Positions 9,436-51,664 of a stretch of 64,000 nt of DNA are shown in pieces. The DNA lies in the NCBI RefSeq assembly GCF_003148475.1, contig NZ_QGGG01000001.1:62001-126000 (forward strand), written 5' to 3'. This DNA is from Pseudaminobacter salicylatoxidans (GTDB lineage Bacteria; Pseudomonadota; Alphaproteobacteria; Rhizobiales; Rhizobiaceae). Positions within the stretch are counted from its first letter, which is position 1, and each line of letters begins with the position of its first letter. The translations under genes were made by a program, and so were the position numbers. Under the pieces are notes generated by a model. The model was not told the origin of the DNA, searched no databases, and saw nothing but the letters and a program-made list of their open reading frames with translations.

Positions 9436-9762
9436 TTCGCTGTACCTTCCCGACTTGCTGGCGAAAAAAGAGAGGCCCCAAAAGGGTGCAAGGCCGTTTT
9501 GCCTAGGGTTGAATGCGGCCATTTTCAGGCGGGGGCTTATCACGATCGGTGATTGTCGAGCCAATGCAGAATTTGCCGCGGGTTATGCAGTTTTTGCATT
9601 TCTTCCGCTGCGTGATGGCTGTTGCAGGCCATCCGATGCGCATTCGGAATGAAAAATCACCGAAATCGCATTTGCTATTTCCCAATCGCAGGTCCACTTA
9701 AATGGCCCGCACGCGGACTCAGGCGTCCGCCTTCCCATCATGTGCAAAAGGTTTTCCAGTCG
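9436..9762. promoter_or_regulatory. Divergent promoter region, peptide importer / dipeptidase
   Basis: These 327 bases separate the divergent importer operon and the dipeptidase gene and must hold both promoters. A short palindrome ATCAC-gatcg-GTGAT lies at 9539-9553 and could be an operator. The 3' half is AT-richer than its surroundings. No regulator gene lies next to it and no coding frame looks real. Confidence 0.45.
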
Positions 9763-10803: not shown

Positions 10804-10825
10804 GCCGCGTGCCCGGTAAAGCGCT

Positions 10826-12136: not shown

Positions 12137-12253
12137 GCAAGCATATCCGGCAGCATCATTGCGGTTGCAATAGTAAAAACCATAACGTGCGATATGCGGG
12201 TTCGCCAGGCAATTTCAGGTGTTTGCGCCGTGAAGCCTGGCAGTGCTCGCCGG

Positions 12254-16399: not shown

Positions 16400-16501
16400 G
16401 GGAACCTACACTCTCAGACTCGGGCGGTGGGACGTCCCCAGCAATAGGAAGCGAGTGGTTAACAGTTCCCTTTTATGGCCTGTCCAAAGGGTGTGGCGAT
16501 T

Positions 16502-16539
16502 TTGCCGCCCGGCCATTTTTCGCAATAACCGGGCGGCAA
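16502..16539 (-). terminator. Stem-loop downstream of copA
   Basis: An 11-base perfect inverted repeat (TTGCCGCCCGG / CCGGGCGGCAA) with a 16-base loop lies 8 bases after the copA stop. There is no real T-run. It probably ends copA transcription before the ftsK promoter, which must lie within 16400-16547. Confidence 0.6.
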
Positions 16540-16547
16540 TTGTCTCA

Positions 16548-36264: not shown

Positions 36265-37209
36265 TCAGTTGCGCCCGAAGGTGCTCTTTCTGGTTGCCTG
36301 GTAGGGATAAGAGAAGACTTCGTTGAAGTTCTCGGTCAGCGAGCTGATGAGCAGGCGCAGGCTGGGGTTCTGGAGCCGGTGGCTGGCGAACAGGGCGTAC
36401 ATCGCGACATCCTTCGAACGCCATTCAGGCAGAACGGGCTTCAGCAGGCCTGCCTCCACTTCGGCATTTGCAAAGAAGACGGGCATGAAGCAGATGCCAT
36501 GGTCGTGGACAGCGGCCAGCTTGGCCACCCAGTAGTCGTTCGTGAGAAAACTGGTGTGGGGCTGTACGCTGAACTCCCTGGGGCCGTTCTTCAGGTTCCA
36601 AAGTGTAAGGCCTTCGCCGCTGTGCACGCCGATGAGATCGTGCTTCCTCAATTCGGCCGGCGAATCGGGGCTTCCGCGCCGCGCCAGATAGCCTTCGCCG
36701 GCATAGAGCCCGAAGGAGAACCGGCCCACGATGCGGGCGGTCAGTTCGCCGACCTGCGGAACCGGCGGCTCGCCAAGATAAAGGATGATATCCAGGCTGT
36801 CGCGCGCCGCCAGCAGGGCGTCACCGTGGAAGACCATGACTTCCAGCCGCAGATCCGGGTGATGGCGCGCAAAATGCAATATCAGCGGCGCCATCAGGTT
36901 GGAGGAAAACTCCCCGCCCGATCCGATCCGCAGGGTTCCGAAGGCAAGCTCGCGTTGCCGGCGCGCCGTATCGAGACCGCGTTCGCAGGCCCGCCTTATA
37001 TTCTTCGCATGTTCGAGAAAATCGCGGCCCGCCTCGTTGAGAATCAGGCGGTTGCTTGACCGGACGAACAGCGGGACGCCGATCTCGCTTTCGAGACGCT
37101 TCAGTTGATGGCTGATGGTTGTCTTGGGCTTTGCGGAAGCCCTTGCGGCCGCGGAAAGCGATCCGCTGGACGCGATTTGCAGGAAAACGAGGACGTCATC
37201 GAATTGCAT
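36265..37209 (-). CDS. LysR family transcriptional regulator of the oxygenase operon
   Basis: This 314 aa regulator has the LysR helix-turn-helix at residues 10-60 (SLSAAARASAKPKTTISHQL) and a type-2 periplasmic-binding-like effector domain. It is divergent from the Rieske oxygenase operon with 104 bases between the starts, so it most likely controls that operon, probably in response to the substrate or product. It is convergent with proX across a strong terminator, so a link to the betaine importer is unlikely. Confidence 0.9.
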   Translation of the reverse strand: MQFDDVLVFLQIASSGSLSAAARASAKPKTTISHQLKRLESEIGVPLFVRSSNRLILNEAGRDFLEHAKNIRRACERGLDTARRQRELAFGTLRIGSGGEFSSNLMAPLILHFARHHPDLRLEVMVFHGDALLAARDSLDIILYLGEPPVPQVGELTARIVGRFSFGLYAGEGYLARRGSPDSPAELRKHDLIGVHSGEGLTLWNLKNGPREFSVQPHTSFLTNDYWVAKLAAVHDHGICFMPVFFANAEVEAGLLKPVLPEWRSKDVAMYALFASHRLQNPSLRLLISSLTENFNEVFSYPYQATRKSTFGRN

Positions 37210-37313: not shown

Positions 37314-37997
37314 ATGGGCATCGAGCACAATCAATGGCGAGGCATTGGTCTCGACCGGCAGGTTCAGCCCGCATCGAGCAATCCGGTCATCGTGAACGGC
37401 GAAATGCTGGCCATGTGGCGCGGCGAAAACGGCCCCGTCCGGGTCTGGGAGGATCGCTGTCCGCATCGCGGCATGCGCCTGAGCTTCGGTTTCGTGCGCG
37501 GCGATTCCCTGCGCTGTATCTATCACGGCTGGGCCTATCGCACGGACGGGCAGTGCGTGGAGATTCCCGCACATCCCGACCTGACGCCTCCCAAGACGAT
37601 TTGTGCCGCATCCTACCCCGCCGAGACCCGCTACGGCATCGTGTGGACGAATCTGGAGCGTGCCGCACCTTCGCCGCTTCCCGATCTCGGACCGGAGGAT
37701 GGTTGGGAGCCCGTGCGCAGCCTCTATGTCAACGGTTCCGCCGCTCAGGTCGAGGCGGCAATCGAAGCCTTCGATTTCGGGGCGCCGTCAATGGTCAGAC
37801 TGAAGCATGCGAACGCCATCGCGCTCGGTATTGGAGTCGAATTGGAACTGCTGATCGCGCTGCAGCCGGTCGCCGACAATCGCATCGGCCTTCATGTGGT
37901 GGCGCGTGGCGCCAGCACGCCTGAGACCAGGGCAAGCCTGGCCAGGCGTCTGCAGCGGCTGCGCACCGAAATCGAGATGGCACAGGAGAAGAAGTGA
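37314..37997 (+). CDS. Stand-alone Rieske [2Fe-2S] protein of a split oxygenase
   Basis: This 227 aa protein carries a complete Rieske motif of the ring-hydroxylating oxygenase type: C49-P-H51-RG and C68-IY-H71-GW. Only about 110 residues follow, far too few for the usual catalytic domain, and I find no mononuclear iron motif in them. The chain is followed by a catalytic-type subunit lacking a Rieske centre (TGATG overlap at 37995-37999), a GST-like protein and a reductase. It therefore probably acts as the electron-carrying Rieske component. A strong GGGGAGGAG site precedes ATG 37314. The weakly conserved C-terminal part may bind the partner or be a remnant. Confidence 0.83.
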   Translation: MGIEHNQWRGIGLDRQVQPASSNPVIVNGEMLAMWRGENGPVRVWEDRCPHRGMRLSFGFVRGDSLRCIYHGWAYRTDGQCVEIPAHPDLTPPKTICAASYPAETRYGIVWTNLERAAPSPLPDLGPEDGWEPVRSLYVNGSAAQVEAAIEAFDFGAPSMVRLKHANAIALGIGVELELLIALQPVADNRIGLHVVARGASTPETRASLARRLQRLRTEIEMAQEKK

Positions 37998-38872
37998 TGG
38001 TTGCGACGACCGACACCGTTGCCAGGAATGAGTGGGTGCCGTGCGGCTGGCTCGGCCAGATTGCTATCGGAACCAACCTCGATACCATGATTTTCGGCCA
38101 GCCGATCCGTGTCGCGCGTATCGCGCAGGATGACTATCGTGTGGTGGAATTGTCGGATGCCGGCACCGAGGGCAGGTCCCTGCCGGTGCAGACCCGCTAC
38201 AATTGCATCTTCACGACCCTCGGCGAGCCGACCCGCGCCTTGCCCGAGATTAGTGAGTTCGATGAGCCGGATCGTCGCATCGTGGGATGCGGCAGCGTCG
38301 GCGTCAGCACCTGCCCCTACCGCCTGATCGAGAACTTCCTCGACCTTGCGCATCTATGCTTCATCCACAAGGACATTCTCGGCGATCCGGAAAAGTCCGA
38401 GGTGCTCGCCTACAAGACCGAGCACCGCAAGGACGCCGACGAGATATGGGCGGTGGATTGCTCGTTCTACCAGCCGGCGGCTTCGAAGGCATCGACTTCG
38501 GGACAGATGACCAAATACATCTACCGTGTCATGTCGCCGTTCAGCGTCATGCTTTACAAAACGGTGAACAGCGACCCGAGCCGCAACGACGCCATTTGCG
38601 TGTTCATCCAGCCAATCGGTGAAACGCAATGCCTGGCTTATATGCCGATGGCTCTGGTGGACGATGTCAGCACCGATGGCGACATCATCGAATTCCAGCA
38701 GTCCATCTTTCTGCAGGATCGTGTGATCCTGGAAAACCAGCGGCCTGCGCTTCTGCCGCTCGACCCGACATATGAGTTGCCGACGCGTGCCGACGCCAGT
38801 TCGATTGCCTATCGCCGCTGGCTGAAGGCAATGAACATCCAGTTCGGAATTCTCGAGAAGCAGGCAGCCTGA
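37997..38872 (+). CDS. Rieske-oxygenase catalytic subunit with degenerate Rieske domain (NdmC-like)
   Basis: This 291 aa protein has the catalytic motif of Rieske oxygenases: N113, D116, H119 and H124 in ENFLDLAHLCFIHKD, with D241 (FLQDRVILENQ) placed to be the third iron ligand. The first 105 residues keep a Rieske-like outline (NEWVPCGWLGQI ... IFTTLGEP) but have lost both Cys-x-His pairs, so they cannot hold the [2Fe-2S] cluster. The same peculiarity is known for NdmC, the 7-methylxanthine N7-demethylase subunit that works with NdmD and the GST-like NdmE. Substrate oxidation, perhaps N-demethylation of a purine, is inferred from this and from the transporter downstream. Confidence 0.82.
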   Translation: MVATTDTVARNEWVPCGWLGQIAIGTNLDTMIFGQPIRVARIAQDDYRVVELSDAGTEGRSLPVQTRYNCIFTTLGEPTRALPEISEFDEPDRRIVGCGSVGVSTCPYRLIENFLDLAHLCFIHKDILGDPEKSEVLAYKTEHRKDADEIWAVDCSFYQPAASKASTSGQMTKYIYRVMSPFSVMLYKTVNSDPSRNDAICVFIQPIGETQCLAYMPMALVDDVSTDGDIIEFQQSIFLQDRVILENQRPALLPLDPTYELPTRADASSIAYRRWLKAMNIQFGILEKQAA

Positions 38873-39498
38873 TGACGATCACCCTCTATGACTACACGCT
38901 GTCGGGAAGCTGCTACAAGGTTCGGCTACTGCTGCGTTTCCTTGGGCTGGCCTATGAACGTCAGCAGATCGATTTCTTTCCCGGCCGCCAGCACAAGTCG
39001 CTGGAATTTCTCGAAATCAATCCGCTTGGACAGCTCCCGGCGCTCCGTGACGGCACTCTCATGCTGCGCGATGCGCAGGCGATCCTGTGCCACCTTGCCA
39101 ACACATACGACACCAGCGGCCAGTGGTTGCCACGTGACGAGCGCTTCGGCGAAGTGATGATGTGGGTGATGTTCGCCGGCGGCGAACTCATGAATTCGTC
39201 GGCGGCGCGGCTGCACGATGCACTCGGCTACAAGCTCGACATCGAGGCCGCACGGGCGAACGCGCATGCCGCCTTGCGCGTGCTCGAAGATCACATGACC
39301 GGGCGCGAGATTGCGGGGCGCAAGTGGATTGTCGGCGGCGCCCCGACAATCGCCGATATCGCTTGCTTCCCCTATATCGCCCTGTCGGGTGATGGCGGGA
39401 TCGGTCATGAGGATTATCCGGCATTGCGCAACTGGATGCGGGATTTCCGGCGTCTCGACGGTTTCCATGCCATGCCTGGCGTTGCCGAGTTCGTGTGA
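38872..39498 (+). CDS. Glutathione S-transferase-like protein (NdmE-like position)
   Basis: This 208 aa protein has both GST domains: a thioredoxin-like N-terminus (TLSGSCYKVRLLLRFLG, cis-proline segment GQLPALRDG) and an all-alpha C-terminus (GGAPTIADIACFPY, a GST N-capping motif). S11 or C14 could contact glutathione. Its place between an oxygenase subunit and the reductase is the same as for NdmE, a GST-like structural partner of NdmC needed for activity. It overlaps both neighbours by one base (TGATG). A structural rather than catalytic role is likely but not shown. Confidence 0.82.
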   Translation: MTITLYDYTLSGSCYKVRLLLRFLGLAYERQQIDFFPGRQHKSLEFLEINPLGQLPALRDGTLMLRDAQAILCHLANTYDTSGQWLPRDERFGEVMMWVMFAGGELMNSSAARLHDALGYKLDIEAARANAHAALRVLEDHMTGREIAGRKWIVGGAPTIADIACFPYIALSGDGGIGHEDYPALRNWMRDFRRLDGFHAMPGVAEFV

Positions 39499-40460
39499 TG
39501 GACGGAGAGCTCGAAGTCATCGTCCGCCAGATCCAGTCGGAAACCTCCGAAATCCGCAGCTTCGTGCTGGAGCCTGCGTCCGGATCGCTTCCTCCATTCC
39601 AGGCCGGGGCGCATATCGACGTGTTCCCGATCCCCGGCATCAGCCGCCAATATTCTCTGGTCAACGATCCGGCTGATTGCTCACGCTATGTACTGGGGGT
39701 CAAGCGCGAGCCCAACAGCCGGGGCGGCTCGAGCGCCATGCATGGCAATCTGCAGGAGGGATCGCGGCTGCGCATCAGCCGGCCGAAGAACAATTTCGCC
39801 CTGCGCAGCAACAGGGGCAGGAGCATTCTTCTGGCGGGCGGCATCGGCGTGACGCCGCTGCTGTCCATGGCGCAGGCGCTTTGCGCGCGGGGCGTCGATT
39901 TCCAGCTACATTATTTCGTGCGCTCCAACAGCGAAATGGCTTTCCGCGACCTGATCATCGGCAGTGCCTGGTCGAGCTGCGTGAACTACCATTTCGGCTT
40001 GGTGCCGCCGGTGCTCAACGACGTGCTGGAGGAAATTCTGCGGGGCCCGGTTGCCGATGATCTCGTCTATCTGTGCGGCCCCGGCCCGTTCATGGATGCG
40101 GTGCGCAGCGTCGCCACCAATGCGGGCTGGACGGCGGATCAGGTCGTGCTGGAGCATTTTTCGGCCGAGCCGCCCAAGCTGGAAGCCGGTGCGGACGAAT
40201 TCGTGGTGCGTCTGGCGCGGCGCGGGATCGAACTGGTCGTGCCGTCGGAAAAGACGATCATCGAAGTGCTGCGCGAGGCGGGGGTCGAAATCCAGACCAG
40301 TTGCGAGCAGGGCGTTTGCGGAACCTGCGTCACGCCGGTGCTGGAGGGAGACCTGCTCCACAACGATCTCTATCTCTCGGACGACGAGCATGAAGAGGGC
40401 CGGTTGATGACCCCGTGTGTTTCGCGCTGCAAGTCCAAGCTTCTCATACTGGATATCTAG
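39498..40460 (+). CDS. Phthalate dioxygenase reductase-type flavoprotein with [2Fe-2S] domain
   Basis: This 320 aa reductase passes electrons from NAD(P)H through FMN to a plant-type [2Fe-2S] cluster. It has the FMN motif RQYS (50-53), the nucleotide motifs GGIGVTP and CGPGPFM, and C-terminal cluster cysteines C269, C274, C277 and C307. It is the VanB/PDR class. NdmD of Pseudomonas has the same three parts plus an N-terminal Rieske domain; here that domain is the separate protein at 37314. The start ATG 39498 overlaps the GST-like stop as TGATG. Confidence 0.9.
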   Translation: MDGELEVIVRQIQSETSEIRSFVLEPASGSLPPFQAGAHIDVFPIPGISRQYSLVNDPADCSRYVLGVKREPNSRGGSSAMHGNLQEGSRLRISRPKNNFALRSNRGRSILLAGGIGVTPLLSMAQALCARGVDFQLHYFVRSNSEMAFRDLIIGSAWSSCVNYHFGLVPPVLNDVLEEILRGPVADDLVYLCGPGPFMDAVRSVATNAGWTADQVVLEHFSAEPPKLEAGADEFVVRLARRGIELVVPSEKTIIEVLREAGVEIQTSCEQGVCGTCVTPVLEGDLLHNDLYLSDDEHEEGRLMTPCVSRCKSKLLILDI

Positions 40461-40590: not shown

Positions 40591-42168
40591 ATGGCAAGCG
40601 TCACAGGACAAGCCTGGGCAGGCACCGATCAGGGAAAGCCCCTTCTGCAGTTGGATCGACTGTCGAAATCGTTCGGGGCGACGCGCGCCAACGAAGACGT
40701 TTCACTCAGCATCCATCCCGGCGAGATTCACGCGATACTGGGTGAGAACGGTGCCGGCAAAAGCACGCTGATGAAGATGATCTACGGTGTGCTCACACCC
40801 AGTTCCGGTCGTATAATGTGGCGGGGGCAGGAAGTTGCGATCCAGTCGCCCGCAGTCGCCCGCGCCCTTGGCATTGGCATGGTGTTCCAGCACTTTTCGC
40901 TGTTCGAAACCCTGACCGTGGCCGAGAACATTTCCCTTTCGGTGCCAGAAAGCGCGGCGGCGCTGGCACCGCGCATCGCGGAATTCGGAGAGCGTTTCGG
41001 CCTGCCGGTGGACCCGTCTGCGCTGGTTCATTCCCTGTCTGTCGGTCAGCGGCAGCGTGTCGAACTGATCCGCTGCCTCCTGCAGAAACCCAGCCTGATC
41101 ATCATGGACGAGCCGACCTCGGTGCTGCCGCCAAGCGGTATTCCGCCGCTGTTCGACACGCTGCGCAAGCTTGCCGCGGAAGGTTGCGCCATCCTGTTCA
41201 TCAGCCACAAGCTCGACGAGATACGCTCGCTCTGCCACCACGCCACGATCATGCGGGCCGGCAAGGTGGTGGGGGCAGTGGACCCGACCCGCGAGACCAA
41301 CGAAACCCTTGCGCGTTTGATGATCGGCCGCGAACTGCCGCAGCCGACCAGATCGCCGGCAAGGCCGGGCGAGAACCCGGCGATGGAGCTGCGTGGTCTC
41401 AGCAGCATTCCATCCGATCCGTTCGGGGTCGTGTTGCATGAAATCGACCTGTCCCTGCGGCCTGGTGAAATCCTCGGCATCGCCGGCGTTTCCGGCAACG
41501 GGCAGAAGGAACTGGCGTCGATCCTGTCGGGGGAGACGCCGCTCAGCGGGGCGGGGCGGGACCGTGTCCTGATCGATGGCGCTGCCTGCGGTCACATGAA
41601 TGCGGGGCAACGGCGCGCCATCGGGCTGGCTTTCGTGCCCGAGGAGCGGAACGGGCGCGGCGCGGTGCCGGAAATGAGCCTTGTCCAGAACACGCTGCTT
41701 ACGGCTCACCCGAAGGGGCTCGTGCGGCGCGGTTTGATCAGCCGCCGGGAGGCCCAGACCCTTGCCGAACAATGCATTGCCGAGATGAATGTGCGCTGCC
41801 ATGGCGCACATGCCGAAGCCAGAAGCCTTTCCGGCGGCAATCTGCAGAAATTCATCGTCGGGCGCGAGATCAAGCTCAAGCCGAAGATCCTGATTGCCGC
41901 ACAGCCCACCTGGGGTGTCGATGTGGGGGCGGCGGCGGCCATTCGGCAGGAACTCATCCGGTTGCGTGACAGCGGCGTGGCGCTGCTCGTCATCAGCGAC
42001 GAACTGGAGGAACTGATGGAAGTTGCGGACCGCATGCAGGTGATCTTCCGCGGCCGCCTGTCGCCGTCGCTGTCGCGCGCCGAGGCCAATACGGCGATGA
42101 TCGGAAACTACATGACCGGCGGCTTTCTCCAGCAGCCGCGCGGTGCACAGCAGGTGGAGGCAGCCTGA
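40591..42168 (+). CDS. Nucleoside/purine-type ABC transporter ATP-binding protein (BMP system)
   Basis: This 525 aa protein has two fused ATPase domains, as in BMP-family (NupO/YufO) and sugar (RbsA) systems. The first has an intact Walker A (ILGENGAGKSTLM) and the signature LSVGQRQRVELIRCL. The second has the degenerate GVSGNGQKELASIL and the signature LSGGNLQKFIVGREI, which is normal for the family. It lies 130 bases after the reductase gene; that gap has no terminator-like hairpin, so the oxygenase and transporter may be co-transcribed. The ribosome site is weak. It energises the two permeases that follow. Confidence 0.9.
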   Translation: MASVTGQAWAGTDQGKPLLQLDRLSKSFGATRANEDVSLSIHPGEIHAILGENGAGKSTLMKMIYGVLTPSSGRIMWRGQEVAIQSPAVARALGIGMVFQHFSLFETLTVAENISLSVPESAAALAPRIAEFGERFGLPVDPSALVHSLSVGQRQRVELIRCLLQKPSLIIMDEPTSVLPPSGIPPLFDTLRKLAAEGCAILFISHKLDEIRSLCHHATIMRAGKVVGAVDPTRETNETLARLMIGRELPQPTRSPARPGENPAMELRGLSSIPSDPFGVVLHEIDLSLRPGEILGIAGVSGNGQKELASILSGETPLSGAGRDRVLIDGAACGHMNAGQRRAIGLAFVPEERNGRGAVPEMSLVQNTLLTAHPKGLVRRGLISRREAQTLAEQCIAEMNVRCHGAHAEARSLSGGNLQKFIVGREIKLKPKILIAAQPTWGVDVGAAAAIRQELIRLRDSGVALLVISDELEELMEVADRMQVIFRGRLSPSLSRAEANTAMIGNYMTGGFLQQPRGAQQVEAA

Positions 42169-43250
42169 TGCGCGCACCCTGGATGATCGAGCCGCGAACC
42201 AGCCTGCCACCTTTCATGAGCCTCGTGCCGCCGCTTGCGGCGGTGGTGGCCACAGTGATCGGCGGCATTGCCCTGCTGACGTTCCTGGGCATTTCGCCCG
42301 GCACCGCGCTTTTCCAGCTTTTTCTGGCGCCGTTCAGCTCGCTCTTCAATCTGAGCGAGGTGCTGTTGAAAGCGACCCCGCTGTTGCTGATCGCGCAGGG
42401 GCTCGCCATCGGCTTTCGGGCAAAAGTCTGGAACATCGGCGCCGAAGGCCAGCTCATTGTCGGCGCCATCGGTGGAAGCCTGCTGCCGATCTTCTACAAT
42501 GACAGCCAGAACCCGTTCATGCTGGCCGGAATGGCGCTTATCGGGGTTCTCTGCGGCATGGCCTGGGCAGGCATCGCGGCGGCATTGCGCACGCGCTTCA
42601 ACGCCAATGAAATCCTCGTCACCCTGATGCTGAACAGCCTGGCGCTGCAACTGCTTTATTATCTCGTCGGCGGGCCGCTGCGCGATCCGTTCGGCTTCAA
42701 CTTCCCCCAGTCGGCCATGTTTCCGGATGTGGCCATGCTCCCGGTGCTGAGCAGTGCCGGGCGGGTGAATGTCGGTTTGCTCGCAGCGGTTGCCCTGTCG
42801 GTGGTGGCCTGGCTGTTCGTGGAGCGCAGTCTGATCGGCTACAAACTGCAGGTTGGCGGTGCGGCACCGGATGCGGCCCGCTATGCCGGCTTCAAGGAAA
42901 GTCGCGCGATCTGGATCAGCCTGCTGGTCGGCGGTGCAGCGGCTGGTCTTGCCGGCGTCTTCGAGGTGGCGGGTCCGCTCGGCCAGCTCCAGCGAGTGGT
43001 TTCTCCCGGCTACGGCTTCGCCGCCATCATCGTGGCGTTTCTTGGCGGGCTGAATGCCATCGGCATCCTGTTCGCCGCCTTCTTCATGGCCGTGATTTAT
43101 GTCGGCGGCGATATTGCCCAGGCCTCCGCCGGCGTTCCTTACGCGGTCATCTCCATTCTGCAGGGCATCATGCTGGTCAGCTACATCGCGGCGCGGATGT
43201 TCGTCGACTACCGCGTGATTTTCCCCTGGTCGCTGGCAAAGGCTAACTGA
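42168..43250 (+). CDS. BMP-system ABC transporter permease 1 (NupP-like)
   Basis: This 360 aa inner-membrane permease has the BPD_transp_2 fold. The segment GFRAKVWNIGAEGQLIVGAI and the block RFNANEILVTLMLNS are typical of the first permease of nucleoside ABC importers. Its ATG overlaps the ATPase stop by one base (TGATG). Systems with this gene order take up purine nucleosides, purines or related heterocycles such as urate-like compounds. Confidence 0.9.
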   Translation: MRAPWMIEPRTSLPPFMSLVPPLAAVVATVIGGIALLTFLGISPGTALFQLFLAPFSSLFNLSEVLLKATPLLLIAQGLAIGFRAKVWNIGAEGQLIVGAIGGSLLPIFYNDSQNPFMLAGMALIGVLCGMAWAGIAAALRTRFNANEILVTLMLNSLALQLLYYLVGGPLRDPFGFNFPQSAMFPDVAMLPVLSSAGRVNVGLLAAVALSVVAWLFVERSLIGYKLQVGGAAPDAARYAGFKESRAIWISLLVGGAAAGLAGVFEVAGPLGQLQRVVSPGYGFAAIIVAFLGGLNAIGILFAAFFMAVIYVGGDIAQASAGVPYAVISILQGIMLVSYIAARMFVDYRVIFPWSLAKAN

Positions 43251-43251
43251 G

Positions 43252-44172
43252 ATGACTTGGCTCACATTCCTGATTTCGGGAACGCTTCTGGCCGCAACGC
43301 CGCTGCTGATTGCAGCGCTCGGCGAAGTGGTCGTCGAAAAGTCGGGCGTGCTCAATCTCAGCATCGAAGGCATGATGTCGGTTGGCGCCGTCACCGCCTT
43401 CATCGTGGTGTTCGAAACGGGCAATCATTGGCTGGCGCTGGCGGCGGGCGGTGTGGCCGCCATTGTTCTGTCGGTCGTCTTTGCCTGTGTCGTCCTGTTC
43501 GCACTCGGCAATCAGGTGGTGTCGGGTCTGGCCGTCGGCCTTCTGGGCATAGGCATTGCCGGGCTGGCAGGAGGCTCCTACGAGAACATGACGGTAGCGC
43601 CGATGGCGCGCTTGCAAATCCCGTTCCTGTCCGAACTGCCGGTGATCGGCCCCGGCCTGTTCAACCATCCGTTGCCCGTCTATCTGGCGCCGCTGCTGGC
43701 CGTGGTCCTGTGGTGGGCGCTCAAATATTCCAAGGTCGGGCTGGTGGTGCGTGCGGTCGGGGAATCGCCGGAATCGGCCAACGCCGTTGGCTACAATGTC
43801 GTCGGCATCCGTTTCCTGGCCATCATGTTCGGCGGCTTCCTTGCCGGCGTTTCCGGCGCCTTCCTGTGCGTTGCCAGTTCGACCCTGTGGGCGGACGGTA
43901 TGGTCGCCGGGCGTGGCTGGATCGTCATCGCACTGGTTGTCTTCGCCATGTGGCGGGTCGAGCGCGTCGTCATCGGCGCTTATCTGTTCGGCGCGGCCTC
44001 GATCGCCGAGTTGCTCGTCCAGAGCGCGGGCATTTCCGTGCCTTCGCAACTCATGACCAGCATTCCCTACATCGTCACGATTGTCGCCGTCTCCATACTG
44101 TCGATGGACGGCAAGCGTGTTCGGCTGAACGCGCCCGTTTCGCTCGGGAGGGTCTATCTGGGAACGCACTGA
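43252..44172 (+). CDS. BMP-system ABC transporter permease 2 (NupQ-like)
   Basis: This 306 aa permease is the second channel subunit. It begins with the family pattern LAATPLLIAALGEVVVEKSG and has VLNLSIEGMMSVGAV and the loop VRAVGESPESANAVGYNV. It starts one base after the stop of the first permease. The binding-protein gene follows 44 bases later with its own strong ribosome site. Confidence 0.9.
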   Translation: MTWLTFLISGTLLAATPLLIAALGEVVVEKSGVLNLSIEGMMSVGAVTAFIVVFETGNHWLALAAGGVAAIVLSVVFACVVLFALGNQVVSGLAVGLLGIGIAGLAGGSYENMTVAPMARLQIPFLSELPVIGPGLFNHPLPVYLAPLLAVVLWWALKYSKVGLVVRAVGESPESANAVGYNVVGIRFLAIMFGGFLAGVSGAFLCVASSTLWADGMVAGRGWIVIALVVFAMWRVERVVIGAYLFGAASIAELLVQSAGISVPSQLMTSIPYIVTIVAVSILSMDGKRVRLNAPVSLGRVYLGTH

Positions 44173-44216
44173 TCAAACGGGAAGCAAAATAACAACGAGA
44201 TCCAGGGAGGAACTTG

Positions 44217-45290
44217 ATGCTGAATATACTGAAGAAACTGGCGATGGCGGCCTGCGTGTCTCTGGTCGCCGCGACCGCGCAGGCGGAGCCGACCAAGCTC
44301 GGTTTCATCTATCCCTCGCCGACCGGCGATGTCGGCTGGGCCAAGCAACTGGACCTTGCGCGCGAGGCGGTGGTCAAGGAGTTCGGCGACAAGGTAAGCA
44401 CGCGCGTGGTCGAGAATGTCGCCGAAGGTCCGGATGCGGGCCGTGTCATCAACCAGATGATCAGTGACGGCGCAAAGTTTGTGGTGCTCGGTTCCTTCGG
44501 TTATTTCAACGATGGTCTGCGGTTGGCCCGTCAGTTCCCCGATGTCGCCTTCCTGCACGCCAGCGGTTTCAAGCAAAGCAAGAATTTCGGCACGTTCACG
44601 GCGCGCAACTATGAGGGCTTCTACCTCGCCGGAATGGCCGGCGGCATGGTCACCAAGTCGAACACGCTGGGCATCGTCGCGGCATTCGCCGTGCCGGAGG
44701 TGGTGGCCGAGGTGAATGCTATCGCGCTGGCGGTGAAGAAGGTCAATCCGGATGCGAAGATCAAGATCGTCTGGGTGAACACCTGGTTCGATCCGGCCAA
44801 GGAACAGGATGCCGCGCGCGCGCTGATCTCGCAGGGCGCGGACGTCTTGTTCTCGCTGCATCAGGACACCCCGTCGGTCGTCAATGTCGGCCAGGCGCAG
44901 AAGGTCTTCGTCGTCAACACCAACTCCGACATGACATCGCATGGCCCCGATGCCGTTCTGGCCTCCGTCACCACGGATTGGGCGAAGTACTTCGTGAAGG
45001 AAGTAGGCGACAAGCTGGCCGATAACTTCAACGGAACCGATTTCCGGGGCGGCATCGCCGACGGCACGGTGAAGGTGGTGGCCTGGAACAAGGCGATCTC
45101 CGCAGACCAGATGGCCCAGATCAAGCAAGCCGAAGCGGATTTGACGAGCGGCAAGATGCATGTCTTCGCCGGGCCGCTGCGCGATCAGTCCGGCACGGAG
45201 CGCGTTGCCGAAGGCGCCAATCTGCCGGATCCGGATATCTTCGCGATGAACTGGCTGGTCGAGGGCCTCGACGGATCGTTGCCGAAATGA
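44217..45290 (+). CDS. BMP family ABC transporter substrate-binding protein
   Basis: This 357 aa binding protein has a signal peptide (MLNILKKLAMAACVSLVAAT, cut near AQAE). It shows the BMP/PnrA patterns LGFIYPSPTGDVGWAKQLDL and NQMISDGAKFVVLGSFGY. BMP proteins of Gram-negative bacteria bind purine nucleosides and some purine bases. I chose ATG 44217 with AGGGAGG upstream; a TTG lies one codon earlier. Its link with the N-demethylase-like operon suggests an N-methylated purine or a related heterocycle as ligand, which is inference. Confidence 0.9.
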   Translation: MLNILKKLAMAACVSLVAATAQAEPTKLGFIYPSPTGDVGWAKQLDLAREAVVKEFGDKVSTRVVENVAEGPDAGRVINQMISDGAKFVVLGSFGYFNDGLRLARQFPDVAFLHASGFKQSKNFGTFTARNYEGFYLAGMAGGMVTKSNTLGIVAAFAVPEVVAEVNAIALAVKKVNPDAKIKIVWVNTWFDPAKEQDAARALISQGADVLFSLHQDTPSVVNVGQAQKVFVVNTNSDMTSHGPDAVLASVTTDWAKYFVKEVGDKLADNFNGTDFRGGIADGTVKVVAWNKAISADQMAQIKQAEADLTSGKMHVFAGPLRDQSGTERVAEGANLPDPDIFAMNWLVEGLDGSLPK

Positions 45291-46029: not shown

Positions 46030-46132
46030 ATTTCAAATCATGTTGACAATCCTGTATTCTTGCTGTTTGCTTACGTTACTTCACGCAGCCGCAGAGCATT
46101 TGAAACAAGCGCGAAGAACAAGGGGAATGAAG

Positions 46133-47329
46133 ATGATCAGCAGACGCATCGCCTTGAAATCCATGGCGCTCGGCGCGGCTTCCGCGCTGGCCATCGCCGG
46201 CATGCTCGCTTCCGCGCAGGCCGAGAACAAGAAGCTGAAGATCGGCTTCGTAGGCGTCACCAGCGGTCCCGCCGCCGCCTGGGGCACCTCCAATGTGCGC
46301 TCCATGCAGGTGCGCGCCGACTGGCTCAACGAGAAGGGCGGGGTCAAGATCGGCGACGACACCTACGACATCGAAATCGTCACCTTCGATGACCAGAAGG
46401 ATCCCAAGCGGGCCATTGCCGGCATGGAGAAGATGGCCGAGCAGGGCATCCACTACGTCGTCGGCCCCAATGTCGATGACGGCGCTGCCGCGGTACGTCC
46501 TGTGGCGGAATCCAAGGGGATCATCTACTTCCCCTATTCCTTCCCCAAGGCGCTCTACACGCCGCCCGCCTCCAACGCGGTGCTGGGCATGGTCGCCAAC
46601 TACCAGTCGGCGCCGGCCATCTACAAATATCTGAAGGAGAACAAGGGTGTCACCAAGGTCGCCTTCGTCGCGGCCAACGAGTCCGATCCGCTCAGTCAGC
46701 GTGACGGCGGTGTCGAGGCGGCCAAGGCGCTGGGGCTGGAGGTCGTTGCCCAGAACGACACCTATCCCAACGACACGCGTGACTTTACCCCCGTGCTGAC
46801 GCCGATCGTGCAGTTGAAACCGGACCTTCTGGTGCTGTCGGGCGTAGCGCCCGCCAATGCACCACTGCTGATACGCGCCGCGCGCGAACTGGGCTATGAG
46901 GGGCTGATCTCGGCCGAGACGGCGCAGGATGCCACCGTGCTGCAGGAAGGTGCTGGCGAGCTTGCCAACGGCTTCATTTCCGTGGGTGGAGCTTCTACGC
47001 CGGAAATACGTTCGCCCGAGATGGAGGAATTCATCGACCGCTATACGAAGAAGTATGGCGAGTACAATGACGAATCCAACACCAAGGTCTATGCGCTGGA
47101 GTACATCGTCGAAACGCTGAAGGCGAACCCGGCGGCGATCGACAATGTCGAGGAATACAAGAAGACCATGGAGACCTTCTCGGCGCCCAATCCCTTCGTG
47201 AAGGAGGGGACGTTGAAATATGTCGGCATGACGTCTTTCGGCCAGAAGCGCCAGATTTCGGTGCCGATGGTGGTGACCGAGTTCAAGGACGGCAAGTTCG
47301 ACACGCTGTTTGTCGGCGAGGTGGACTGA
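46133..47329 (+). CDS. Branched-chain-type ABC transporter substrate-binding protein
   Basis: This 398 aa protein belongs to the LivJ/receptor family. The N-terminus MISRRIALKSMALGA has a twin-arginine-like motif and a signal cleaved near AQAE. The mature part starts KIGFVGVTSGPAAAWG. I chose ATG 46133 because AAGGGG lies 7 bases upstream; ATG 46127 is too close to it. LivJ-type systems transport many compounds besides amino acids, including amides, ureides and aromatic acids. The racemase at the end of the cluster suggests a hydantoin- or allantoin-like ligand. Confidence 0.88.
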   Translation: MISRRIALKSMALGAASALAIAGMLASAQAENKKLKIGFVGVTSGPAAAWGTSNVRSMQVRADWLNEKGGVKIGDDTYDIEIVTFDDQKDPKRAIAGMEKMAEQGIHYVVGPNVDDGAAAVRPVAESKGIIYFPYSFPKALYTPPASNAVLGMVANYQSAPAIYKYLKENKGVTKVAFVAANESDPLSQRDGGVEAAKALGLEVVAQNDTYPNDTRDFTPVLTPIVQLKPDLLVLSGVAPANAPLLIRAARELGYEGLISAETAQDATVLQEGAGELANGFISVGGASTPEIRSPEMEEFIDRYTKKYGEYNDESNTKVYALEYIVETLKANPAAIDNVEEYKKTMETFSAPNPFVKEGTLKYVGMTSFGQKRQISVPMVVTEFKDGKFDTLFVGEVD

Positions 47330-47350
47330 CGCCGACCCGGCCGGATCGTT

Positions 47351-47387
47351 TCCGGGGTGCTTGCGGCTTTTGCACAGGCGCCCCGGA
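47351..47387 (+). terminator. Stem-loop between binding-protein and permease genes
   Basis: A 10-base stem (TCCGGGGTGC / GCGCCCCGGA, one G-T pair) with a 17-base loop lies 21 bases after the binding-protein stop. Such hairpins often protect or partly terminate the mRNA so that the binding protein is made in excess over the membrane parts. Confidence 0.6.
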
Positions 47388-47472
47388 CCGACCTGACATG
47401 CGGCATGCCGCGGTGTGATCGCGCCAGCTTCCGGCGATGCGCCGGACCCTTTCGCCAACCGGATTTGACATC

Positions 47473-48339
47473 ATGGAACAGGTGATTGCCAACGGGCTTT
47501 ATCTCGGCGCCCAATATGCGCTCATCGCGCTCGGCCTGACGCTGATCTTCGCGCTGATGAATGTGCTCAACTTCGCCCACGGGCAAATGTATGTGCTGGG
47601 CGGTTTCGTGACCTATACGATCTACGGCCGGCTTGGTCTGCCGTTCCCGGTGGCGCTTGCCGCTTCCTGCGTGACGCTGGGGGTGGTCGGCGCGCTGATT
47701 GAAAAGTTCCTGTTCCGCCCGGTGGTGCGGCGTAGCGAGCGCGAGGAGAGCACCATGCTGCTTGCCGCCGCAGTCGCCTTTTTCCTGGACGCAGTCATCC
47801 TGCTTTTGTTCGGCGAGAAGCAGCGCGGCGTGCCCAAGATCGTCAATGGCGTCTTCGTTTCCGATCAACTCATCATGCCCTATGACCGCATCGTGGTGGG
47901 CGTGGTCGCCATCGCCATGATCGCCGCCTTCGTGCTCTACATGCAGTACAGCCGGCCCGGCCGCGCCATGCGCGCGCTCGCCCAGGACCGCACCGCCGCG
48001 CAGCTGATGGGCGTCAATGTCGATCGTTATTCGATGATCGGCTTCGCGCTCGGCGCGTTGCTGGCGGGTGCGGTCGGCAGCCTGCTGGTGACGATTACCG
48101 GCGTCAACTCCGGCATCGGTGGCCCGATTTCCATCAAGGCCTTCCTCATGGTGATGATTGGCGGTGCCGGTGTCGTCGGCGGCGCGATTGCCGGCGGCTT
48201 CATCCTCGGCATGATGGAATCGGTGGGGCTGACGGTGCTGCGCGAATATGGCGACATCACCTATCTCGTCATCTTCGCGCTTCTCATGGTCTTCCTCAGC
48301 ATCCGCCCGAACGGGCTGATGGGCAAGCCTTGGGGTTGA
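47473..48339 (+). CDS. Branched-chain-type ABC transporter permease (LivH-like)
   Basis: This 288 aa inner-membrane protein has the LivH pattern at its N-terminus (GAQYALIALGLTLIFALMNVLNFAHGQ). The family block RAMRALAQDRTAAQLMGVNVDR is also present. I start at ATG 47473 (MEQVIANGLYLG), which matches the family; upstream codons to 47437 lack similarity. The LivM-like gene follows after 3 bases. It has no close-range evidence for its substrate. Confidence 0.9.
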   Translation: MEQVIANGLYLGAQYALIALGLTLIFALMNVLNFAHGQMYVLGGFVTYTIYGRLGLPFPVALAASCVTLGVVGALIEKFLFRPVVRRSEREESTMLLAAAVAFFLDAVILLLFGEKQRGVPKIVNGVFVSDQLIMPYDRIVVGVVAIAMIAAFVLYMQYSRPGRAMRALAQDRTAAQLMGVNVDRYSMIGFALGALLAGAVGSLLVTITGVNSGIGGPISIKAFLMVMIGGAGVVGGAIAGGFILGMMESVGLTVLREYGDITYLVIFALLMVFLSIRPNGLMGKPWG

Positions 48340-48342
48340 GCC

Positions 48343-49392
48343 ATGACCGCGACAGCCAAGCTCTTCGCTTCGGCGGCATTGCTGCTGCTCCTCCTTGTGG
48401 GCGTGCCGCTTTTCATCAACGCCACCGGGCGGTCGGATCTCTATTACACGCTCACCTCGGTGGCGTTGCTGTCCATCATCAGCGCCGGCGTGTGGATCAC
48501 CTTCTATATCGGCCGCATCAATATCGGGCAGGGCGCCTATGCGCTGATGGGCGGCTATGTGTCGGCCATACTGGTCATGGAATATGGCGTTTCCTTCTGG
48601 GTCACGCTGCCGCTGGCGGGCCTGTTCTGCATGGCCGCCAGCGTGCTGATCGGCCTGCCGATCCTGCGCCTGCGCGGCGTCTATTTCGCCATGGTCACGC
48701 TGGTTCTGACCGAGGTGGCGCGGTTGCTGGCGTTGGCGCTTCCCATCACCAATGGCGCCAAAGGCATCGTCAGCATCCCGCAGCCGGGCCGTATTGGCCT
48801 GTTCGGGCTCACCATCGTTCCGGATTTCGCGACGCTCGCAAATCCGCGCTTTGCCTTCTACGTCGTGTCGGTGCTGTTGATGGCACTGTGCTTCGCCGCG
48901 CTCTACCGGCTGAAGAATTCGCGCATCGGGCAATTGTGCCAGTCGCTTCAGCAGAATGAGGAACTGGCCTCGTCCATCGGCGTCAACATCACCTATCTGC
49001 GCGTGCTGGCTTACGCCATTTCCTCCTTCCTCGGCGGCGTCGGCGGGGCGATGTTCGCGGCCATCTCACAGTCCATCTATCCGTCGAGCTTCACCGTGGC
49101 CGACTCCATCAATTTCATGCTCAACTGCTTCCTTGGCGGGCTGGGCTACGTGTTCGGGCCGATGCTCGGCACCTTCGTGCTCTATTTCGGCTGGGACCTG
49201 CTGTTCCAGACAGGTGAGTTCCAGCTTCTCATCTTCTCCACGATCCTGATCGCGCTGATGCTGCTTCTGCCCAACGGACTGCTCAGCCTCAGGCTGTCGG
49301 GCCGGCCCAAGGCGACCGCCGCTGCCCCGCCGGCGCATCGGCAGGAGGAGGCGCAAGCCCGCAGCACTGCCGCCGGGAGGGCATCGTCATGA
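48343..49392 (+). CDS. Branched-chain-type ABC transporter permease (LivM-like)
   Basis: This 349 aa permease has the LivM outline with about ten hydrophobic segments. It carries the motif YIGRINIGQGAYALMGGY and the loop IGQLCQSLQQNEELASSIGVN. The C-terminal 30 residues are hydrophilic and rich in Ala, Arg and Gln. Its stop overlaps the LivG-like start by four bases. Confidence 0.9.
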   Translation: MTATAKLFASAALLLLLLVGVPLFINATGRSDLYYTLTSVALLSIISAGVWITFYIGRINIGQGAYALMGGYVSAILVMEYGVSFWVTLPLAGLFCMAASVLIGLPILRLRGVYFAMVTLVLTEVARLLALALPITNGAKGIVSIPQPGRIGLFGLTIVPDFATLANPRFAFYVVSVLLMALCFAALYRLKNSRIGQLCQSLQQNEELASSIGVNITYLRVLAYAISSFLGGVGGAMFAAISQSIYPSSFTVADSINFMLNCFLGGLGYVFGPMLGTFVLYFGWDLLFQTGEFQLLIFSTILIALMLLLPNGLLSLRLSGRPKATAAAPPAHRQEEAQARSTAAGRASS

Positions 49393-50168
49393 GCGCCATT
49401 CTCGAAATCTCGGGGCTTACCAAGCGCTTCGGCGGTCTGGTTGCGGTCAACGCCGTGTCGTTCACCGTGGGCGAGCGCGAAATCGTTTCCGTCATCGGGC
49501 CGAACGGGGCAGGCAAATCCACCCTGTTCAAGCTGATCGCTTCCTTCCTGCGGCCGACCGAGGGTGAGGTGCGTTTCAAGGGAGAGCGCATTTCCGGACT
49601 GGCTGCCCATATCGCAGCCCGCAAGGGCGTGGTGCGCACCTTCCAGGAAACCACCATTTTCAAGAACATGACGGTGCGCGACAATGTCATCACCGCGCAT
49701 CACCTGCGCTCCCGCGCGAGCCTCGCCGGCTTTTATTTCAGCACGCCGATGGCGCGGCTCGACCAGGAGGAATTCGGTCGCTCGGCCGACGAAATCATCG
49801 ACTTCCTCGGCCTTTCCGAAATGAGGAACGAGATCGCCTCCAACCTGCCCCATGGGCATCTCAGGGCGCTCGGCATCGCCATCGGCCTTGCCACCGATCC
49901 GGCGGTGCTTTTGCTGGACGAACCCTTCGCCGGCATGAACCACGACGAGACGCGGCGCGCGGTGGAGATGGTGCGCAAGGTGCGCGAGCGTGGCATCACC
50001 GTGCTTCTGGTGGAGCACGACATGCCCGCCGTGATGAACATTTCCGATCGCATCGTCGTGCTCAATTTCGGTCAGAAGATCGCCGAAGGTACGCCGGCCG
50101 AAATCCAGCAGGATGCCAGGGTCATCGAAGCCTATCTGGGTGCCGAAGACGAATCGATCGGGTTGTAG
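49389..50168 (+). CDS. Branched-chain-type ABC transporter ATP-binding protein (LivG-like)
   Basis: This 259 aa ATPase has Walker A (VIGPNGAGKSTLFKLI), the LivG-type insert after VVRTFQETTIFKNMTV, and Walker B (LLLDEPFAGMNHDETRR). The signature region LPHGHLRALGIAIGLAT deviates from the usual LSYGQQRRLEIARAL: GHLRALGIA replaces GQQRRLEIA. That is unusual, but the rest of the protein looks functional. A GGGAGGG site precedes ATG 49389. Confidence 0.9.
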   Translation: MSAILEISGLTKRFGGLVAVNAVSFTVGEREIVSVIGPNGAGKSTLFKLIASFLRPTEGEVRFKGERISGLAAHIAARKGVVRTFQETTIFKNMTVRDNVITAHHLRSRASLAGFYFSTPMARLDQEEFGRSADEIIDFLGLSEMRNEIASNLPHGHLRALGIAIGLATDPAVLLLDEPFAGMNHDETRRAVEMVRKVRERGITVLLVEHDMPAVMNISDRIVVLNFGQKIAEGTPAEIQQDARVIEAYLGAEDESIGL

Positions 50169-50171
50169 GCC

Positions 50172-50894
50172 ATGGAAAAACTGCTCACATTCGACGATGT
50201 CGAACTCTATTACGACCATGTCTACGCGCTGAAGGGCGTTTCGCTCGAGGTCCGGGAGGGCGAGACGGTGGCGCTGATTGGCGCCAACGGGGCGGGAAAA
50301 TCCTCCATTCTGCGCGCCATTACCGGCCTGAAGAAGCCGCGCACGGGCGAGATCCGCTTCCGCGGCCGGCGCATCGACGGGGTCGGCCCCGATGAGATCG
50401 TACGCATGGGCATATCCATGGTGCCCGAAGGCCGCAGGGTGTTTCCCTACATGACGGTCAGGGACAACCTCCTGATGGGTGCCTTCACGCGTGCCGACAA
50501 GGCGGAGATCGCAGACTCGCTGGAGCGCGTGCTGACCCGCTTTCCGCGGCTGAAGGAGCGCTACGCGCAGCAGGCCGGAACGATGAGCGGCGGCGAGCAG
50601 CAGATGCTGGTGATCGGCCGAGCGCTGATGGCCCGGCCGAAGCTGCTTCTGCTCGACGAGCCCTCGCTTGGCATTGCGCCAAAGCTGGTGCAGGACATCG
50701 CCCGCTCCATCGTCGCCATCAATCGCGACGAGAAGGTCAGTGTGCTTCTGGTGGAGCAGAATTCCCGCATGGCGCTGCGTATCTCCCAGCGCGCCTATGC
50801 ATTGACCACGGGCTCGATCGCGCTCAGCGGGCAATCCGCTGAACTGCTCACCGACGAGCGGGTCAAGCGCCTCTATCTGGGTGGAGAAGTTTAG
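50172..50894 (+). CDS. Branched-chain-type ABC transporter ATP-binding protein (LivF-like)
   Basis: This 240 aa ATPase has Walker A (LIGANGAGKSSILRAI), the signature MSGGEQQMLVIGRALM and Walker B (LLLDEPSLGIAPKLV). It completes the importer of binding protein, two permeases and two ATPases. It starts 3 bases after the LivG-like stop and is followed 8 bases later by the racemase gene. Confidence 0.92.
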   Translation: MEKLLTFDDVELYYDHVYALKGVSLEVREGETVALIGANGAGKSSILRAITGLKKPRTGEIRFRGRRIDGVGPDEIVRMGISMVPEGRRVFPYMTVRDNLLMGAFTRADKAEIADSLERVLTRFPRLKERYAQQAGTMSGGEQQMLVIGRALMARPKLLLLDEPSLGIAPKLVQDIARSIVAINRDEKVSVLLVEQNSRMALRISQRAYALTTGSIALSGQSAELLTDERVKRLYLGGEV

Positions 50895-50902
50895 GAAGTC
50901 GC

Positions 50903-51664
50903 ATGCGCATACTTGTCATCAACCCGAACACGACCGCATCCATGACCGCCAAGATCGGCAAGGCCGCATCCCTGGCTGCGGCTTCGGGCACGGATATCCT
51001 TGCCGTCAACCCGCAGGACGGTCCGCCCAGCATCGAAGGCTATTTCGATGAGGTGTTCGCCGTGCCGGGCATCATCACCGAGATGGCGCGCAACCGCGAC
51101 ATGGATGCCTATGTCATCGGCTGCTTCGACGATACGGGCCTCGATGCCGCCCGCTGTGCCACGACCGCACCGGTGATCGGCATTGGCGAGGCGGCTTTCC
51201 ACATGGCAAGCCTGATCGCCGGCAAGTTCAGCGTGGTCACCACGCTTGCCCGCTCGGTGCCGGCGATAGAGCACAATCTGGTGAAATACGGGCTCGCCTC
51301 GCGCTGCGCCAGGGTCAGGGCCTCCGATGTGCCCGTGCTCGACCTTGAGAAGCCGGGCTCGGATGCACGCTCCAGGATTTCCGACGAGATCGCGCGGGCG
51401 GTGGCCGAGGACGGCGCCGAGGCGATCGTGCTCGGCTGCGCGGGCATGGCTGACCTTGCCAACCAGTTGACGCAGGCACATGGCGTGCCGGTGCTGGATG
51501 GTGTGGCCTGCGCCGTCAAGCTGGCCGAGTCCCTGCACGCGCTGGGTCTCCATACTTCGAAAGTCGGCAGCTATGCCGCCCCGCGGGCCAAACGCTTCGC
51601 CGGCTTCTACGCGCCACTGTCGCCTTCCGTCGAGGCGGGAGAGGGGATAGTGGCGGCATCGTAG
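50903..51664 (+). CDS. Asp/Glu/hydantoin racemase-family protein
   Basis: This 253 aa cofactor-independent racemase-fold protein has the two catalytic cysteines, C74 (VIGCFDDTG) and C179 (VLGCAGMADL). It starts with the family pattern RILVINPNTTASMT. Members racemise hydantoins, allantoin, aspartate or glutamate; NPNT with GCFDD fits the hydantoin/allantoin group best. It is the last gene of the importer operon, so the imported compound is probably chiral with an acidic alpha-carbon, such as a 5-substituted hydantoin or allantoin. No hydantoinase or allantoinase gene is in the window. Confidence 0.83.
   Translation: MRILVINPNTTASMTAKIGKAASLAAASGTDILAVNPQDGPPSIEGYFDEVFAVPGIITEMARNRDMDAYVIGCFDDTGLDAARCATTAPVIGIGEAAFHMASLIAGKFSVVTTLARSVPAIEHNLVKYGLASRCARVRASDVPVLDLEKPGSDARSRISDEIARAVAEDGAEAIVLGCAGMADLANQLTQAHGVPVLDGVACAVKLAESLHALGLHTSKVGSYAAPRAKRFAGFYAPLSPSVEAGEGIVAAS

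Follow-up and report, generated by a model that had tools for sequence, protein, structure and literature searches.

A candidate purine-base oxygenase of the NdmCDE kind, with its Rieske and catalytic parts on separate subunits, in Pseudaminobacter salicylatoxidans

Contig 1 of the 43-contig, 4.84 Mb genome of Pseudaminobacter salicylatoxidans carries an operon in which the parts of a Rieske non-heme iron oxygenase are encoded by separate genes. The window analysed here is a stretch of 64,000 nucleotides from that contig (NZ_QGGG01000001.1, positions 62,001 to 126,000, forward strand), and coordinates refer to it unless another locus is named; labels such as L017 denote loci fetched for comparison. 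Four forward-strand genes at 37314-37997, 37997-38872, 38872-39498 and 39498-40460, joined by three one-base TGATG overlaps, encode a Rieske protein (Rsk), a catalytic subunit (Cat), a glutathione-S-transferase-like (GST-like) protein and a reductase (Red). A sequence-only reading of the window had described them as a Rieske protein, a catalytic subunit without Rieske ligands, a GST-like protein and a PDR-type reductase, a description borne out by the coordinates, by Pfam and by recurrence in six further loci. The operon continues past these four genes to about 45639, with an ATP-binding cassette (ABC) importer at 40591-45290 and then an acylphosphatase-like open reading frame (ORF). The features are as follows.

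36265..37209, minus strand: LysR-type regulator, divergent from the operon; at the same place in L017, L018, L128, L167, L168 and L169, with 54-81% identity
37314..37997, plus strand: Rsk, free Rieske protein, 227 aa; Rieske is its sole Pfam domain (PF00355, 68.7 bits)
37997..38872, plus strand: Cat, NdmC-like catalytic subunit, 291 aa; VanA_C (PF19112, 82.3 bits) only, with no Rieske match in Pfam
38872..39498, plus strand: NdmE-like glutathione-S-transferase-fold protein, 208 aa; Pfam GST_N/GST_C, 54% identical to NdmE
39498..40460, plus strand: Red, flavin/NADH reductase with a plant-type 2Fe-2S domain, 320 aa; Fer2, 52.6 bits
40591..42168, plus strand: ABC importer ATPase; PF00005, in two stretches
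42168..43250, plus strand: ABC importer permease 1; PF02653
43252..44172, plus strand: ABC importer permease 2; an ORF with a homologue at the same place in six relatives
44217..45290, plus strand: BMP-family periplasmic binding protein, AtzT-like, a predicted purine-base binder; PF02608
45334..45639, plus strand: acylphosphatase-like small protein, 101 aa, a candidate fifth subunit; PF00708, 31.4 bits against a cut-off of 22.5

Rsk and Cat have lost reciprocal parts of a Rieske oxygenase alpha chain. The cluster ligands of Rsk, C49/H51/C68/H71, occupy invariant alignment columns, while its catalytic domain is shrunken and lacks the iron motif; in profile alignments (hhalign) residues 2-226 align with residues 11-299 of a full Rieske oxygenase, much of the catalytic core being gone. 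Residues 2-290 of Cat align by the same method with residues 6-335 of a full oxygenase, the stretch of the cluster ligands excepted, and E112, N113, D116, H119, H124 and D241 are invariant in 90/90 aligned relatives (90 of 93 split catalytic subunits, three divergent or partial rows having been excluded). These 93 were drawn from 100 Cat-like matches in the loci used, after five complete oxygenases with a Rieske motif and two short pieces had been dropped, and in every one the cluster motif is missing and D/E-x2-H-x4-H is present. Both ligand sets of a Rieske non-heme iron oxygenase are present in the system, C49/H51/C68/H71 on Rsk and H119/H124/D241 on Cat, on two proteins instead of one alpha polypeptide holding both centres. 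Since Rsk and Cat both begin at the N-terminal part of the alpha chain they are not adjacent pieces of a single chain, and each looks like what is left of the same kind of alpha chain after reciprocal losses. This anatomy fits electron transfer between neighbouring subunits; in NdmA, the cluster lies 44.7 Å from its own iron and 12.1 Å from that of the neighbour (PMC10380055). The best solved sequence matches of both Cat and Rsk are SxtT and SxtDIOX (GxtA), which differ in being complete alpha chains with both centres. A Foldseek search with a model of Rsk placed Rieske oxygenases at the top, but at a root-mean-square deviation of about 12 Å, and was set aside as evidence.

As a reference for NdmABCDE we took the plasmid cluster of P. 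putida MT178 (L136), whose NdmB (E 9.5e-236) and NdmA (E 1.1e-229) match the solved proteins and whose NdmD contains the solved NdmD ferredoxin domain (E 4.7e-47), NdmC and NdmE being assigned by their place beside NdmD. Cat is 39% identical to this NdmC over 284 aa (E 1.7e-70) and the GST-like protein 54% identical to NdmE over 206 aa; Rsk is 37% identical to residues 4-150 of NdmD, in its N-terminal half, and Red 41% identical to residues 278-588, in its C-terminal half. Residues 29-221 of Rsk align to 30-239 of the S. meliloti NdmD homologue. Because Rsk and Red match separate stretches of NdmD, they correspond to its two halves, so that the likeness to NdmC/E/D proposed by the sequence-only reading holds, and its picture of an NdmD Rieske domain with a gene of its own is a fair one. 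Red has a weak NAD-binding Pfam match (26.6 bits, cut-off 22), matches the NdmD ferredoxin domain 6icm_D at E 2.3e-23, and has phthalate dioxygenase reductase 2pia as its best solved relative (E 5.7e-60).

NdmCDE, the N7-demethylase complex of Pseudomonas putida CBB5, forms a 3:3:3 complex of 360 kDa (PMC10380055) and has 7-methylxanthine as its substrate (PMC4408171). The two systems are alike in having a catalytic subunit that lacks the Rieske cluster but keeps the iron site, a GST-like partner, a flavin/NADH/plant-ferredoxin reductase and a Rieske donor external to the catalytic subunit. They differ in that the Rieske domain of the window has its own gene, whereas NdmD fuses it to the reductase, in the added acylphosphatase-like gene, in an importer that is BMP/AtzT-like and not NCS2, in the lack of any NdmA or NdmB match in the scanned stretch (26001-54000 of the window), and in identities of only 37-54%. 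Homologues of ndmCDE have been named in Sinorhizobium, Mesorhizobium and Klebsiella (PMC4408171); those of S. meliloti (L133) and Klebsiella (L132) belong to the same family but, unlike the window, encode Rieske domain and reductase as one fused protein and lack an acylphosphatase-like gene. HpxDE of Klebsiella, which oxidizes hypoxanthine, resembles the system, at the level of description, as an oxygenase with a reductase in purine catabolism. HpxD is a complete Rieske oxygenase, unlike the split form of the window. Judged by sequence, then, the system of the window is NdmCDE-like but divided; it falls in a sister group and adds a small protein and an importer that probably carries a purine base.

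The full order, a LysR gene divergent from Rsk-Cat-GST-Red-ABC-permease-permease-BMP-acylphosphatase-like, is found in seven loci: the window, L017 (Pseudaminobacter soli), L018 (Mesorhizobium sp. YM1C-6-2), L128 (a plasmid of Paracoccus alcaliphilus), L167, L168 and L169. A survey of the co-occurrence of the four genes, as the sequence-only reading had proposed, thus returns the same order in six further loci, followed each time by the same ABC importer. L019, on a short contig, has Rsk-Cat-GST and then a reductase match at the contig end. In L018, a draft contig, the Cat gene (9905-10675) has a frame break close to its start and the gene of the binding protein (15461-17044) is spread over two frames, reflecting either draft sequencing errors or decaying genes.

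Relatives of Cat at E <= 1e-20 occur in 50/297 genomes of the order and 25/398 of the phylum, the genome of the window being counted in both, although both lists take in complete Rieske oxygenases (for example L083, L084, L121 and L123) among their weakest matches. The scored sample, a subset of the search matches that was not dereplicated, comprises 74 fetched loci with a split Cat, of at least 9 kb plus L019 and the window; L166 repeats the L017 record and was excluded from counts. These loci were found through the window's own Cat and Rsk or through the Cats of relatives, which favours the free form, and L167-L182 were fetched on Rsk matches. With that bias, 52 of the 74 have a free Rieske gene, 18 a fused, NdmD-like one and four neither. 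One of the four, L116, has a Rieske ORF (8604-9860, minus strand) of about 395-418 aa, intermediate between the free forms and NdmD; in the other three (L062, L064, L065) a lone Cat has xanthine dehydrogenase and amidohydrolase genes as neighbours, and the 20 kb fetched gave no match to Rieske or GST.

We searched the literature for the free-Rieske partition, which the sequence-only reading had thought to have no described match. It is not described in the available portions of PMC4408171, PMC13237722, PMC8055839 and PMC10380055, nor was it found in the wider literature searched, whose coverage did not extend to Summers 2013; neither "NdmC" nor "split" occurs in the text of a 2025 Rieske review. 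The arrangement therefore kept its novelty within these sources, but in the sample it is not rare.

Neighbours were counted as matches anywhere in the stretch analysed, mostly 20 kb. Among the 52 free-Rieske loci these were GST in 52, a standalone reductase in 11, a BMP importer in 39, a purine-deaminase-type amidohydrolase in 32, xanthine dehydrogenase in 14 and frmA, for glutathione-dependent formaldehyde dehydrogenase, in five; the corresponding figures among the 18 fused loci were GST 17, BMP importer 11, purine-deaminase type two, xanthine dehydrogenase two and frmA four. No reductase match was seen in the stretches analysed of 41/52 free-Rieske loci, and the reductase may in these cases be encoded elsewhere in the genome. 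Eleven loci (L021, L023, L066, L120, L130, L170, L172, L173, L179, L181, L182) have two Cats with one free Rieske gene and one GST match, and two Cats are likewise found in 7/18 fused loci. The two Cats of a pair belong to separate supported clades: one is mostly found close to guanine deaminase and the importer, the other near xanthine dehydrogenase. Beside the amidohydrolase of the second Cat, L021, L023, L066, L130, L170-L175, L181 and L182 encode a two-subunit, sulfopyruvate-decarboxylase-like thiamine-pyrophosphate enzyme and a GMC oxidoreductase. L134, a plasmid of Komagataeibacter nataicola from kombucha, has two split systems side by side (7816-13306), the first with a very divergent Cat (28% identical to that of the window) and a 177-aa Rieske-like protein without the second cluster cysteine, a donor that may be dead or have an altered cluster. 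In a Gram-positive, the Niallia taxi megaplasmid L135 carries an NdmA-like oxygenase with a Rieske motif together with guanine deaminase and NCS2 importer matches.

Free and fused Rieske domains form sister groups on a tree of 34 free and 17/18 fused sequences rooted on complete oxygenases: the free group has support of 87/91 (not starred) and is one group in 84% of bootstraps, the fused group of 17 has 98/94, and the window lies outside the latter. On the Cat tree the window belongs to an eight-row clade with 100/100 support. The fused rows do not form one group there, but grouping them, which requires one change of state, is not rejected (p-AU 0.274), and the change may have been either fission of NdmD or fusion.

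The fifth gene, which together with the purine uptake and catabolism setting goes beyond the sequence-only reading, tracks the free architecture. An acylphosphatase-like gene is present in 47/52 free-Rieske loci vs 0/18 fused loci (Fisher p 1.5e-12, uncorrected for relatedness), no match being seen in L019, L022, L024, L079 and L115; because each architecture is one group on the Rieske tree, the association amounts to about one evolutionary contrast. RefSeq annotates the small protein as acylphosphatase, and a pRL10 relative falls just under the PF00708 cut-off (20.7 vs 22.5 bits). At what we take to be the catalytic Arg and Asn positions of acylphosphatase, Arg occurs in 3/47 and Asn in 0/47 aligned members (49 matches minus two fragments), and the window has Val and Glu. 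A literature search on the pairing of acylphosphatase with a Rieske oxygenase gave no paper mentioning acylphosphatase among the results examined.

The binding protein at 44217-45290 matches AtzT (6pi5, E 4.8e-83) and 3s99 (E 7.4e-75). AtzT was purified with guanine bound, with a Kd of 110 nM, and binds 2-hydroxyatrazine as well, guanine being held 20-fold tighter (0.11 vs 2.2 µM), while adenine was modelled in 3s99 (PMC6834077). Of seven AtzT contact positions, mapped by hand from the alignment, Ser97, Phe98, Glu165 and Trp194 are kept in the window clade, whereas Tyr45 is replaced by Trp, Asn218 by His and Asn220 by Asp. The resulting pocket (W41 S93 F94 E161 W190 H215 D217 in the window) gives a pattern, WSFEWHD, common to all seven window-type operons; the position equivalent to AtzT 218 is Ala, Tyr or Met in other groups. 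Matches of the ABC subunits to NCBIfam "putative B6 transporter" models fell well under cut-off, and the AtzT match was preferred. Downstream of the operon (46124-51664), the window holds branched-chain-type ABC importer genes, next a gene of the Asp/Glu/hydantoin racemase family and, after it, one for a GntR regulator.

Other loci place the family among purine genes. The 8-oxoguanine deaminase after the L128 operon scores 669 bits against a family cut-off of 532, and a guanine deaminase in L130 is also above cut-off. A xanthine (NMT1) riboswitch was found in one of 13 relatives scanned, at L025:3689-3773 (minus strand), in a stretch that holds the split oxygenase, xanthine dehydrogenase and deaminase-type genes; the window gave no riboswitch match at gathering scores for 4227 Rfam families. 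Riboswitches of this class have been linked with purine oxidation and with genes resembling hpxDE (PMC7373994), and catabolism of methylated guanine has a recent precedent in N2,N2-dimethylguanine hydrolases (PMC13054789). We hold with good confidence that the substrate is of purine type.

From these features we infer a complex that would work as follows. Electrons from NADH would enter Red at its flavin, pass to its plant-type 2Fe-2S cluster and from there to the Rieske cluster of Rsk, and then, through the conserved Asp116, cross from one subunit to the other and reach the mononuclear iron of Cat (His119, His124, Asp241), which would activate O2. The GST-like and acylphosphatase-like proteins would keep Rsk and Cat together and the AtzT-like importer would take up a purine base, from which Cat would most likely strip an N-methyl group, the formaldehyde passing to glutathione-dependent formaldehyde dehydrogenase. 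The divided electron path is highly probable. The whole, a purine-base oxygenase with its alpha chain divided into two complementary subunits and most likely N-demethylating, is our best explanation, and we give it about an even chance.

Bearing on the choice of reaction, frmA follows the acylphosphatase-like gene directly and on the same strand in L017, L018 and L168, three of the seven window-type operons. Its frequency in the window clade (3/7, leaving out L019, which is cut short) exceeds that in other free-Rieske loci (2/44; Fisher p 0.015, uncorrected for relatedness), and in the NdmC clade frmA and frmB accompany the caffeine-type clusters of L117, L136 and L137 but not L116, L131 and L132 in the stretch analysed. 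The adjoining frmA favours N-demethylation in the window clade, and NdmC, the nearest characterised relative, is a demethylase. The main rival keeps the divided electron path but has Cat hydroxylate a carbon of the purine ring, no methyl group being involved. HpxDE, whose kind the sequence-only reading had named as an alternative, is held to hydroxylate hypoxanthine in this manner, and the 8-oxoguanine deaminase of L128, the xanthine riboswitch of L025 (one of 13 scanned) and the many free-Rieske relatives whose neighbours, frmA being absent, are xanthine dehydrogenase and deaminase genes of guanine or adenine type all point towards it. Set against the three adjoining frmA genes and the kinship with NdmC, ring hydroxylation in the window is possible but doubtful, and we lean, with some reserve, towards N-demethylation; in the other free-Rieske clades, with their deaminase or xanthine-dehydrogenase settings and mostly without frmA, the reaction may be ring hydroxylation. 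In the window's own genome a second PDR-type reductase gene lies directly before a formaldehyde dehydrogenase gene on contig 5 (L177:9332-11441, minus strand), hinting at another demethylase.

Several observations weigh against a demethylating purine oxygenase. The contigs of L017 and L018 end inside the formaldehyde dehydrogenase gene, L128 has the 8-oxoguanine deaminase in its place, and L167 and L169 have neither; outside the window clade, the 2/44 free-Rieske loci with frmA are L115 and L134, and the three cases in this one clade may reflect a single event. The scanned stretch of the window holds no formaldehyde gene, nor any purine deaminase, xanthine dehydrogenase or NdmA/B match. Two strong formaldehyde dehydrogenase matches lie on other contigs of its genome, and since one shares 91-95% identity with the three operon copies, these are not a distinct operon-specific type. 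Because of this near-copy and the two genes cut by contig ends, our confidence in the best explanation was lowered a shade, from just above even to even, and that in ring hydroxylation raised by still less. In most two-Cat loci the importer has WS-SWID in place of an AtzT-like pocket, so that the pattern is not family-wide. The count of 32 was made with five amidohydrolase references, of which only two pass an NCBIfam cut-off; below it are two amidohydrolases and an adenine-deaminase homologue, the last of which passes the Pfam adenine-deaminase model. AlphaFold models from four-row alignments were poor (mean pLDDT 41.2 and 50.5) and establish neither the Cat fold nor the interface.

The remaining alternatives fare worse. 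A plain equivalent of NdmCDE, removing the N7-methyl group of 7-methylxanthine in the degradation of caffeine or theobromine, would account for the homology of all parts and would share the known substrate of that complex (PMC4408171); it is improbable given the separate, well-supported Cat clade, the unfused Rieske domain, the different importer type and the lack of NdmA, NdmB and NCS2 matches in the scanned stretch. A substrate outside the purines, for instance an N-alkyl triazine, would make the purine genes beside relatives an ancestral trait; this reading draws on the binding of 2-hydroxyatrazine by AtzT, the closest solved relative of the binding protein, but the 20-fold preference of AtzT for guanine and the purine enzymes beside relatives make such a substrate slightly less probable again. 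A broken or misassembled ordinary oxygenase, suggested by the alignment of Rsk and Cat to parts of one alpha chain, is scarcely credible when both proteins start at its N-terminal part, keep the ligands in the right halves and recur in 52/74 fetched split loci. The sequence-only reading had itself raised an assembly-broken alpha subunit, and Cat clustering with an oxygenase of other chemistry, as dangers to its proposal; Rsk is instead a recurrent separate gene, though by descent it looks like an alpha chain with a shrunken catalytic domain, and the nearest characterised relative found for Cat is NdmC.

More broadly, and tentatively, the system may represent a large, undescribed modular Rieske lineage for (methylated) purine bases. 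In such a lineage duplicated alpha chains would have decayed reciprocally into an Rsk donor and a Cat acceptor, a pseudo-acylphosphatase would be an obligate subunit, one Rsk/GST/acylphosphatase module could serve two interchangeable Cats of different specificity, and within the fused sister branch NdmCDE would be a member adapted to caffeine. The finding adds to the fused NdmD form a sister branch with a free Rieske protein and a recurrent fifth small protein, and, with the donor subunit free, transfer from cluster to iron between subunits can be tested directly by mixing or omitting proteins. The loci in which a single Rieske gene accompanies two Cats hint at a plug-in design useful for engineering, and the family as a whole offers a lead on the way soil bacteria may exploit methylated purine bases.

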